DNA of 64,000 bases, from NCBI RefSeq assembly GCF_914271545.1, contig NZ_CAJZAH010000007.1, forward strand, positions 124,001-188,000. Reading direction: 5' to 3'. This DNA comes from Cupriavidus respiraculi (GTDB lineage Bacteria; Pseudomonadota; Gammaproteobacteria; Burkholderiales; Burkholderiaceae). This document shows positions 40,964 through 44,726 of this stretch, piece by piece. The position numbers and the translations under genes were made by a program. Every line of letters begins with the position of its first letter. Within the stretch, counting starts at the first letter, position 1. The notes under the pieces were generated by a model. That model saw only the letters and a program-made list of their open reading frames with translations. It searched no databases and was not told the DNA's origin.

Positions 40964-41854
40964 ATGCGGATAGGCATTCTGTACGCGTTGCTGGCGTACA
41001 TCATCTGGGGCGTGCTGCCGCTCTATATCAAGGCGCTGCAGGGCATCGCGCCGTTCGAGATCCTGCTGCACCGGATGGTGTGGTCACTGGTCTTCCTCGG
41101 CCTGATCCTGGCCGTGCGCCGCCACTGGGGCTGGCTGCGGCAGGCCTGGTCCAGTCCCCGCCTGCTGATGGGGTTCGTCGCCAGCGCCTTGCTGTTGTGC
41201 GGCAACTGGTTCCTCTATATCTGGGCGGTGTCCACCAACCGCGTGGTGGACGCGAGCCTGGGCTACTTCATCAATCCGCTGTTCAGCGTGCTGCTGGGCG
41301 TGGTGTTCCTGCACGAGCGGTTGCGACCCGGGCAATGGCTGGCCATCGCGGTAGCCACCGCCGGCGTGGCGTGGCTGACCTTCGCCGCCGGGCAGTTGCC
41401 CTGGATCGCGCTGGCGCTGGCGGCCACCTTCGGCGGCTACGGCCTCATGCGCAAGACCGCAGCACTGGGTACGCTCGAAGGGCTGTCGCTGGAAACGCTG
41501 TTGCTGTTTCCCTTCGCCGCTGGTGCGCTCGCCTGGATGGCCCATACCGGCCGGGCGGATTTTCCCGACGCCAGCCTTGGCACCCAGTTGCTGATCACCA
41601 TGGCCGGGCCGGTCACCGCGGTGCCGCTGCTGTTCTTCGCCGCCGCCGCGCGGCGCATTCCGCTCTCCCTGCTGGGACTGCTGCAGTACACGGGGCCCAC
41701 GCTCCAGTTGCTGCTCGGCGTATGGCTGTGGCACGAGCCGTTCCCGGCCGACAAGCAGATCGGCTATGCCATGATCTGGGTGTCACTGGCCATGTATGCG
41801 GTCGAAGGAATATGGGCGGGACGGCGCCGCGCGCCCGTCACGGTGCCGGAATAG
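40964..41854 (+). CDS. rarD: RarD/EamA-family membrane transporter
   Basis: A 296-residue protein with ten predicted membrane helices in two EamA repeats. RarD-specific sequences include AYIIWGVLPLYIKALQGIAPFEILLHR and the NWFLYIWAVSTNRVVDASLGYFINPLFSVLLG block. RarD was first named for chloramphenicol sensitivity; its transported substrate is not established. ATG 40964 lies directly after the terminator of the preceding gene, with a promoter-like GTAGAATCT upstream. Normal length and intact. Confidence 0.93.
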   Translation: MRIGILYALLAYIIWGVLPLYIKALQGIAPFEILLHRMVWSLVFLGLILAVRRHWGWLRQAWSSPRLLMGFVASALLLCGNWFLYIWAVSTNRVVDASLGYFINPLFSVLLGVVFLHERLRPGQWLAIAVATAGVAWLTFAAGQLPWIALALAATFGGYGLMRKTAALGTLEGLSLETLLLFPFAAGALAWMAHTGRADFPDASLGTQLLITMAGPVTAVPLLFFAAAARRIPLSLLGLLQYTGPTLQLLLGVWLWHEPFPADKQIGYAMIWVSLAMYAVEGIWAGRRRAPVTVPE

Positions 41855-42044: not shown

Positions 42045-43175
42045 ATGTCCCTGTCTCCCGCCCCTGCCGCCACGCCGCAGCGCAAGATCATCCATTGCGA
42101 TTGCGACTGCTTCTACGCCTCGGTCGAGATGCGCGACGACCCGTCGCTGCGCGGCCGGCCCATGGCGGTCGGCGGGGCGGCGGACCGGCGCGGGGTCATC
42201 GCCACCTGCAACTACGAGGCGCGCGCCTTCGGGGTACGGTCGGCGATGTCGTCGGCCCAGGCGCTCAAGCGCTGTCCCGACCTGCTGATCGTGCGGCCGG
42301 CGATGGACAAGTACCGGGAGGTGTCGCGCCGGATCTTCGCCATCTATCGCGAATACACGGAACTGGTCGAACCGCTGTCGCTCGACGAAGCGTATCTGGA
42401 CGTCAGCGCATGCTCGCGGCATCAGGGCAGTGCCACGCTGATTGCCGACGAGATCCGCCAGCGGGTACGCGAAGAGGTGGGGGTGACGGTGTCCGCCGGC
42501 GTCGGGCCGAACAAGTTCGTGGCCAAGATCGCCAGCGACTGGAACAAGCCCGACGGGCTGTTCGTGGTGCGCCCGGGGGCCCTGGATGCCTTCGTCGCCG
42601 CGCTGCCGGTCGAGCGCATCCATGGCGTCGGCGAGGTCACGGCCGCCAAGCTCAAGCGGCTGGGCGCCACGACGTGCGCCGACCTGCGCGAGTGGTCGCC
42701 CGACATGCTGCACCGGCACTTCGGCGCGTTCGGCGGGCGGCTCTACCATCTGTGCCGCGGGGTGGACACGCGCCAGGTCACCCCGGAGCGCGAGCGCAAG
42801 TCGATCAGCGTCGAGGAAACCTATTCGGACGACCTGCCCGACCTTGCCGCCTGCCTGGCCGAGCTCGATGCGCTGGTGGCCATGCTGGAGGCGCGCATCG
42901 CGCGCGCCCAGGCGCACGGCGCCATCCACAAGCTGACGGTCAAGCTGAAGTTCTCGGACTTCCGGCAGACCACGGTGGAGTGCCGCGGCCACGCGCCGGA
43001 CCGCACCGTCTATGCGCGGTTGCTGACCGAGGGACATGGGCGCCGCGGTCTGCCGGTGCGGCTGCTGGGGGTGGGCGTGGGCACCAGCGATCCCGATACC
43101 GCGCAGCTCGACTGTTCGCGGACCCGCCCGCGGCGATCCTGCCCGAAGCGTCCTGAGGCGCGCGTGCCGGCCTAG
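42045..43175 (+). CDS. dinB: DNA polymerase IV with frameshifted C-terminus
   Basis: A Y-family polymerase, 376 residues as read. The catalytic carboxylates are present (IIHCDCDCFYASVE at the start and LSLDEAYLDVS), together with the thumb helix-hairpin-helix (VERIHGVGEVTAAKL) and little-finger segments. Relatives end ...QLDLFADP..., a beta-clamp-binding motif of the QL[S/D]LF type. Here the frame reads QLDCSRTRPRRSCPKRP...: one base is missing after GAC 43110-43112, and the neighbouring frame continues LFADPPAAILPEAS to a stop at 43156. A lost C in GACCTG would explain this. The polymerase core is intact, but processive clamp-dependent synthesis should be lost if the change is real. A sequencing error is the main alternative. 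Confidence 0.9.
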   Translation: MSLSPAPAATPQRKIIHCDCDCFYASVEMRDDPSLRGRPMAVGGAADRRGVIATCNYEARAFGVRSAMSSAQALKRCPDLLIVRPAMDKYREVSRRIFAIYREYTELVEPLSLDEAYLDVSACSRHQGSATLIADEIRQRVREEVGVTVSAGVGPNKFVAKIASDWNKPDGLFVVRPGALDAFVAALPVERIHGVGEVTAAKLKRLGATTCADLREWSPDMLHRHFGAFGGRLYHLCRGVDTRQVTPERERKSISVEETYSDDLPDLAACLAELDALVAMLEARIARAQAHGAIHKLTVKLKFSDFRQTTVECRGHAPDRTVYARLLTEGHGRRGLPVRLLGVGVGTSDPDTAQLDCSRTRPRRSCPKRPEARVPA

Positions 43176-44176
43176 GGCAGCTGGTTGCGCATCACCAGCA
43201 GCCACGGCATGTGCGAGTTGGTCAGCCCGTCGATGCGGCCGCTGTCGCCCAGCTCGATCACCTCCATCGACACCGATTGCTGCAGATTGCCGCCAATCGA
43301 CTTGACCACGCGCGCGGTGGCGTCGACCTCGACCACGATGTCGCAGTGCATGGGCGTGGTGCCGAAGCCCACCTCCGCCGGCGTGCCGATGTATTTGTCG
43401 CGGCCGCGTCCCGCGCAGACGATATCGCCCGGGCGCGGCATCGCGGGGACGGGTTCGATGCGGAAGGCGGGCGCGGGCAGGATGCCGTCGCGCGCGTCCA
43501 CCACGTACATCGAGTGCGATTCGCCCGTCAGGAACTGGCGCTCGTCCAGGCCTGCCTGGCGCAATACCCACGAGATAAAGACCGCCGACCATGCCCAGCG
43601 GCCCTGCGTGATCTCGTAGCAGTCCGGCGTCTTGCCCACGATGGCCCAGTAGCGCTGGGCCATGGCGCAGCCCTGCACGGTGGCCTCCATGCCGGTGCCA
43701 TCGGGAAAGCCGGGGCAGGTCGCGGCCTGCGGCGCATCGTCGGCGCTGGGCTGGCCGGCGCCGGCCGCGATCCCGTTACCCAGCAGGCCGGCATCGGCGA
43801 GAGGATCGCCGCCCGGCGATGCGCCGGCGGTCGCGACGGCGGGAGCCGGAACCGGCAGCGGACTCGACGTGATGCAGGCCGTATCGTCGCGGCCGATGCG
43901 GATGGTCTGCCCGCCCCAGCGCTGCCACTCCTGCAGCGCGATATCCACGATGCGCTGGCGCGAGGGGGTACCCGCGGCGGGCTGCGCGGGCTCGGCCTGC
44001 GGCAGCGGTCTCGCCTGGGGCCGCGCCGTCGCCGGTGCGCGATCCACGGCCGTGGGACCGGCGCAGCCGGCCAGCAACAGGGCCGCTGCGCACAGGGCGG
44101 CTACCTGTGGAAAGAATTGTGAGAAACGATGTGAATAACGCTGTGGAAATCCGGGCAGGGGCGATCCAGTCGGCAT
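43172..44176 (-). CDS. DUF2272 domain-containing lipoprotein
   Basis: A 334-residue predicted lipoprotein with signal helix and lipobox (ALLLAGC near residue 35), an Ala/Pro-rich linker, then the DUF2272 region (TPSRQRIVDIALQEWQRWGG, GRWAWSAVFISWVLRQAG, and a late CHAP/NlpC-like MPRPGDIVCAGRGRDK...HCDIVVEV). The Cys/His arrangement suggests an NlpC/P60-like fold that could cleave peptidoglycan, but this is inference. The start MPTGSPLPGF (44176) is preceded by GTCATC; several DnaA-box-like sequences lie inside its first codons. It is convergent with dinB, overlapping by 4 bases at the stop codons. Confidence 0.84.
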   Translation of the reverse strand: MPTGSPLPGFPQRYSHRFSQFFPQVAALCAAALLLAGCAGPTAVDRAPATARPQARPLPQAEPAQPAAGTPSRQRIVDIALQEWQRWGGQTIRIGRDDTACITSSPLPVPAPAVATAGASPGGDPLADAGLLGNGIAAGAGQPSADDAPQAATCPGFPDGTGMEATVQGCAMAQRYWAIVGKTPDCYEITQGRWAWSAVFISWVLRQAGLDERQFLTGESHSMYVVDARDGILPAPAFRIEPVPAMPRPGDIVCAGRGRDKYIGTPAEVGFGTTPMHCDIVVEVDATARVVKSIGGNLQQSVSMEVIELGDSGRIDGLTNSHMPWLLVMRNQLP

Positions 44177-44300
44177 GATGGCGTGTGAGTAGCCGGCGCT
44201 ACGCGCGGTCCCCGCAACGCCAGTATTGACAGGGGGTGGCCGCCGATCGAGCGCGCCATCGCGGCCCGGATGGCGAGGGTATTGCACGGTCCACCGCCCC

Positions 44301-44342
44301 GGTGGATAAGCGGGGATACCGCGCGAGGGCGGCTGTGGATAA
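44301..44342. promoter_or_regulatory. DnaA-box pair between HU and DUF2272 genes
   Basis: GGTGGATAA (44301-44309, one mismatch) and TGTGGATAA (44334-44342, perfect reverse of TTATCCACA). Additional weaker copies lie at 44130-44138 (TGTGAATAA) and 44106-44114, 44142-44150. A copy of the GGGGATACCGCGCG repeat lies between them (44312-44325). Confidence 0.6.
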
Positions 44343-44447
44343 CGTGCCCGCCTGGCGCCCGTGCGCCATTGGCGCCAGGGGCGCGGCTGGGCGGGCGGCA
44401 CGGCGGGATCATGAGGGCTGGAGCAGGTCGGAGCCGCCCCGCGCGCT

Positions 44448-44726
44448 TCACTGGTTGACGGCGTCCTTGAACTTCTGGCCGGCCTTGAACTTGATGGTCT
44501 TGGCTGCTTCGACCTTGATTTCCTCGCCGGTGCGCGGATTGCGCGCCATGCGTTCGCCACGCTCGCCCTGGCTGAAGGTACCGAAGCCGATCAGGCTCAG
44601 GCTGTCGCCCTTGGCCACGGCGTCCATGATGGCGTTCAGGGTCACGTTCAGGGTCTGCTCCGCCTTGGCCTTGGTCAGGCCGTCCACACCGGCGGCGATG
44701 GCGTCGATCAGTTCGGTTTTCGTCAT
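44448..44726 (-). CDS. hup: HU-family DNA-binding protein
   Basis: A 92-residue histone-like protein, full length: MTKTELIDAIAAGVDGLTKAKAEQTLNVTL, the beta-arm with RNPRTGEEI, and the C-terminal helix (FKAGQKFKDAVNQ). HU dimers bend and compact DNA and help initiate replication. Good ribosome-binding site (GGAG) before ATG 44726. It is next to a region with DnaA boxes, where HU could assist DNA melting, and near a lysine methyltransferase gene. Confidence 0.96.
   Translation of the reverse strand: MTKTELIDAIAAGVDGLTKAKAEQTLNVTLNAIMDAVAKGDSLSLIGFGTFSQGERGERMARNPRTGEEIKVEAAKTIKFKAGQKFKDAVNQ

Follow-up and report, generated by a model that had tools for sequence, protein, structure and literature searches.

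The dinB gene at this locus ends without the motif by which DNA polymerase IV (Pol IV) binds the sliding clamp, and the question is whether this ending is natural, was produced by a mutation, or arose from an error of sequencing or assembly. We analyzed a stretch of 64,000 nucleotides (the window), identical letter for letter to positions 124001-188000 of contig C7 in a 5.59-Mb, 18-contig assembly, the one genome assembly by which the species is represented.

Organization of the dinB locus

The following features of the window bear on this question.

40964..41854, + strand: rarD-type EamA transporter gene, upstream of dinB (TIGR00688, 215.5 bits; cut-off 130.15)
42045..43175, + strand: dinB, DNA polymerase IV, 376 aa as encoded, with a frameshifted tail (NCBIfam, Pfam, homology)
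42045..43112, + strand: intact polymerase core and little-finger domain, ending ...AQLD (translation, Pfam, structure alignment)
43104..43117, + strand: remnant of the clamp-binding-motif codons, one nucleotide shorter than in 35 aligned loci (3'-end alignment, tails)
43112..43156, + strand: adjacent frame, LFADPPAAILPEAS, stop TGA at 43154-43156 (ORF 42095-43156)
43113..43175, + strand: frameshifted tail of 20 residues, Arg-rich (7 Arg/Lys, 1 Glu), stop TAG at 43173-43175 (translation)
43172..44560, - strand: convergent gene downstream of dinB, longest ORF (homologue beyond the dinB stop in relatives)

The start of dinB at ATG 42045 was set by homology, and the nearest named loci among the best 80 of 573 matches were six, all from Cupriavidus. 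Residues 11-352 of the encoded protein matched the NCBIfam model for DNA polymerase IV (NF002677) with 532.5 bits (cut-off 256), and Pfam identified the IMS (PF00817), IMS_HHH, and IMS_C (PF11799) domains; by PF00817, PF11799, and NF002677, both the Y-family catalytic domain and the little finger are present. Residues 12-352 aligned with the Pol IV structure 4ir1 (chain 4ir1_F), with SLDEAYLDV identical, and the SLDEAYLD stretch, which we take to be catalytic, is unaltered in this alignment. The original prediction of an intact polymerase core is borne out by the NCBIfam and Pfam matches, by the 4ir1 alignment, and by the dN/dS ratio of 0.139 discussed below.

In all 35 loci searched, from 29 distinct genomes, dinB follows rarD and precedes the same convergent gene, demonstrating that its place is orthologous. 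A gene rearrangement at the 3' end of dinB is ruled out by the same conserved neighbors. An NCBIfam search with the convergent ORF (43172..44560) gave no match. In the window, one CTAG (43172-43175) is shared by the stop of the frameshifted dinB and that of the convergent gene, bases 43173-43174 being common to the two stop codons, and the genes now end tail to tail. Directly after dinB, several relatives (L011, L020, L027, and others) carry an AT-rich stretch with short inverted-repeat-like elements (for example ATTATTC and GAATAAT), which the window lacks.

The dinB frame leaves the clamp-binding motif after QLD

From ATG 42045, the dinB frame runs to ...AQLD, with the aspartate codon at 43110-43112, and then reads CSRTRPRRSCPKRPEARVPA before the TAG at 43173-43175. 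Our translations agree with the predicted reading of QLD followed by CSRTRPRRSC... and with an adjacent frame that stops at 43156. Because one nucleotide is missing within 43104..43117, the dinB frame leaves the clamp-binding motif after QLD, and no C-terminal motif of the QLxLF or QLxLxL type is present in the protein as encoded. Codons for the motif's leucine and phenylalanine persist in the adjacent frame, and 43112..43156 is probably the former dinB C-terminus.

The remainder of the motif and a stop close behind it lie in the adjacent frame, as would also be seen with programmed frameshifting or transcript slippage. Ribosomes or RNA polymerase would then slip, and the cell would contain Pol IV of both kinds, docking and non-docking. 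Relatives, however, encode the motif in frame and need no shift. Inspection by eye revealed neither a slippery heptamer nor a homopolymer at the site, and the predicted RNA fold of 43095-43200 was no better than those of shuffled sequences (z 0.26; 117 of 200 shuffles at least as stable). We rejected programmed frameshifting on the absence of a slippery site by eye and of an unusual fold, and consider it extremely improbable.

The clamp-binding tail is conserved in relatives

We searched 60 genomes of the genus with a DinB query. The window-type DinB was found in 35 of these, including the window's own and one (G042) in which the copy is in three pieces; amino-acid identity of the window protein to 33 other same-genus copies, the frameshifted one of G037 among them, was 79-88%. 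Another DinB, 33-39% identical to the window type, occurs in 24 of the 60, and the remaining genome (G047, 54% complete) gave no DinB match, so that 59 of 60 keep one DinB type. The genus thus has two alternative DinBs, with no genome among the 60 listed with both.

With frames read as they stand, and G042 read from its last piece, 33 of the 34 other same-genus copies end in Q(L/G)xLF, the sole exception being G037. The motif is absent from the single window copy and present in all six named Cupriavidus records, which duplicate six of 29 genomes. Outside the genus, the named records taken from the best 80 of 573 matches numbered 74, and a strict pattern recovered the motif in 73 of them; the last, L058, reads QLDFLF by eye, so that all 74 have a motif-like ending. 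Copies of the other DinB were fetched for 15 of the 24 genomes, and each of these copies has the ending Q.[EA][LF].F, taken by resemblance only as a related hexamer. In C. neocaledonicus (L034), which has the same gene and neighbors as the window, the motif is QLALF and is in frame.

A nucleotide alignment of dinB 3' ends contained 36 rows, the window plus 35 loci from 29 distinct genomes (6 rows being duplicates); five further genomes fetched later lie outside it. A gap inside the motif codons occurs only in the window (1 of 36 rows), and all 35 other rows are one base longer, as expected from the earlier claim that one base is missing at the clamp-binding pentapeptide. A QLDCS ending shared by relatives would have argued that nothing had been lost; the alignment of Cupriavidus dinB contains none, nor did any other relative examined. 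Thus, judged by sequence, the window dinB ending is a frameshift relative to every sequence compared and not a natural ending.

Two other copies in the genus are damaged in different ways. The one-base gap of L024 (G037:C1:68884-72959) lies elsewhere, in a G run ~40 columns upstream, and this copy has also lost the clamp-binding tail; a G run is a typical context for errors, and slips of this kind may be present in assemblies of the genus. In L031 (G042:C83:1690-5727), from a genome that is 86% complete, dinB is split over three frames, and its last piece ends QLELFP.

Selection on the polymerase core and age of the frameshift

We compared the window core with 32 other copies, the set of 34 minus L024 and L031, which are frameshifted themselves. 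Median pairwise values for the window were dN 0.081, dS 0.567, and a ratio of 0.139. Six intact copies with median dS of 0.565-0.614 had ratios of 0.085 (L010), 0.108 (L029), and 0.157-0.173 (L014, L017, L021, L023), and the remaining, crowded copies were mostly at 0.06-0.09, with L171 at 0.152 and L174 at 0.203. The window core is under purifying selection, with a ratio inside the intact-copy range of 0.085-0.173, and thus is not visibly decaying. Within this set of six, L010 and L029 are under stronger constraint than the window, whose core may be slightly relaxed. In a 34-row dinB tree, the window stands by itself on a branch (0.12 changes per column) next to a group of 27. The constrained core and the single clean defect rule out an old pseudogene, and we infer that the frameshift is recent.

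Constraint on the core would also suit an Arg-rich tail that had been selected as a replacement, tethering Pol IV to DNA or to another partner independently of the clamp, in the manner of mycobacterial DinB2. The tail contains 7 Arg/Lys and 1 Glu, and DinBs that have no predicted clamp motif exist (PMC10159617). Against such selection, GC-rich DNA read out of frame often gives Arg-rich peptides, many such ORFs occur in the window, and the tail shows no sign of age and is absent from all relatives examined. We regard a selected tail as very unlikely.

Mutation or assembly error

The simplest competing explanation is that a base was lost in sequencing or assembly and that the organism has an intact dinB and a normal Pol IV with its clamp-binding tail. 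Several observations are compatible with such an error: the base is missing at this site in the window alone (1 of 36 rows); the motif is kept almost everywhere else examined; the rest of the gene is undamaged, with a core that is not visibly decaying; a second terminal dinB frameshift lies in the G run of G037; and the species is known from one genome assembly. The leucine and phenylalanine codons that persist in the adjacent frame are expected for an error or for a very young mutation, and on these data the two look alike. Retention of a DinB in 59 of 60 genus genomes would make loss of function unusual and counts against a real mutation.

Two features speak against an error. The site has no homopolymer, and a frameshift census of the 195-kb contig against a two-contig relative, G049, gave 6 raw candidates on the window's contig, of which 0 were upheld on reading frames. 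The census comprised 105 non-overlapping ORF matches (125,397 bp), representing the part of the genome in genes shared with this one relative, and is blind to shifts in short tails such as that of dinB. The six candidates were judged to be adjacent genes, antisense frames, or non-coding stretches, and the reverse comparison gave 5 raw candidates in G049. A wider census of stretches of contigs C1 and C4 covered only 59,260 bp because those contigs match G049 poorly, and its 1 candidate was not upheld by three-frame translations. The absence of upheld candidates in ~125 kb of comparable coding sequence of the contig, together with the absence of a homopolymer, favors a real mutation. Weighing these points, we think it rather probable, with substantial reserve, that a recent single-nucleotide deletion occurred in the last codons of dinB and acts through poor docking in the clamp cleft; an assembly error is the less probable account, a possibility to be taken seriously. 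If real, the mutation probably arose at the strain or species level and is ordinary in kind.

The finding becomes useful if resequencing confirms the frameshift. In that event, the window dinB would be in nature what the Pol IV deltaC5 allele is in the laboratory, a separation of function in which the polymerase is present and clamp docking is gone. How the clamp contact of Pol IV contributes to mutagenesis could then be examined in a strain that needs no engineering. If the frameshift is not confirmed, the case shows that reads are needed before a draft genome's frameshift at the end of a gene is called biology.

Predicted consequences for Pol IV

If the deletion is real, translation would leave the frame just inside the clamp-binding motif, after QLD, and the product would have the Pol IV core and little finger at full length but end in a basic tail of 20 residues where relatives have QLxLF. 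Two laboratory alleles, E. coli Pol IV deltaC5 and mycobacterial DinB1 without QESLF, suggest by analogy that this enzyme would keep its polymerase activity, have little affinity for the sliding-clamp cleft, and mostly be kept out of translesion synthesis and mutagenesis at the fork. As encoded, Pol IV should polymerize and be poorly recruited.

In E. coli, polymerases depend on QLxLF or QLxLxL motifs for their biological activity, and the C-terminal QLVLGL of Pol IV extends to the clamp cleft (PMC4564189). Removal of the last five residues of E. coli Pol IV eliminated cleft binding and left a rim contact of ~one-hundredth the affinity, and a catalytically dead deltaC5 enzyme reportedly still promoted the dissociation of Pol III, which points to a further contact (PMC9522359). 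The original prediction that the enzyme cannot dock properly on the clamp is upheld insofar as the QLxLF position is lost, but is overstated in light of the weak rim contact just described (PMC9522359). Because E. coli Pol IV retains this rim contact, and maybe a Pol III core contact, docking is predicted to be strongly weakened rather than absent, and a Pol IV that does not bind the cleft might nonetheless work by way of the rim or the Pol III core (PMC9522359). When expressed, M. smegmatis DinB1 without QESLF neither inhibited growth nor raised mutagenesis, although its authors allow that the product may be less stable (PMC9346131).

With its motif lost and its core retained, the window dinB matches a deltaC5-like allele on sequence criteria. 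Like E. coli deltaC5, it has the core and little finger and has lost the cleft-binding motif (PMC9522359); unlike that laboratory allele, it occurs in a natural genome and carries 20 frameshifted residues in place of the motif. The laboratory allele of M. smegmatis DinB1 without QESLF likewise has its C-terminal pentapeptide removed (PMC9346131), but is an engineered deletion in a distant DinB. Mycobacterial DinB2 and DinB3 are natural DinBs with no predicted clamp-binding motif, as the window dinB would be, and thus the motif-less state is not unheard of (PMC10159617). DinB2 and DinB3, however, are paralogue families beside a clamp-binding DinB1, whereas the window dinB is the only match to the DinB query in its genome and its change is confined to the tail. 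Judged by its core sequence, the window gene is a Pol IV, and the motif is a docking part absent from some natural DinBs (PMC10159617). Among the titles and abstract openings listed by searches of open-access papers, none described a natural dinB with a lost clamp-binding tail or a Cupriavidus dinB.

A bolder account holds that the sole DinB of a natural bacterium has lost its tail by one nucleotide and kept a functional core, so that its Pol IV works off the clamp or away from the fork, perhaps helped by the basic tail, and that the genus may have lost the tail a second time, independently, in G037. We consider this account unlikely.

Other translesion genes

Matches to LexA boxes, for which we assumed the pattern CTGT-N8-12-ACAG and counted exact matches only, numbered 0 in the window, with 2.26 expected by chance. 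A search of the genome for the IMS family found dinB and one other place, on contig C4 (G000:C4:89213-92524; L002), where imuA (an NCBIfam equivalog) adjoins a Y-family-like ORF with an IMS match. This 690-aa ORF had no hit in NCBIfam, and by its position and IMS match it is probably imuB. A second DinB that might cover the loss was ruled out, the only other IMS match being this gene beside ImuA, called ImuB. With imuA and the probable imuB, the same genome probably contains a second translesion system.
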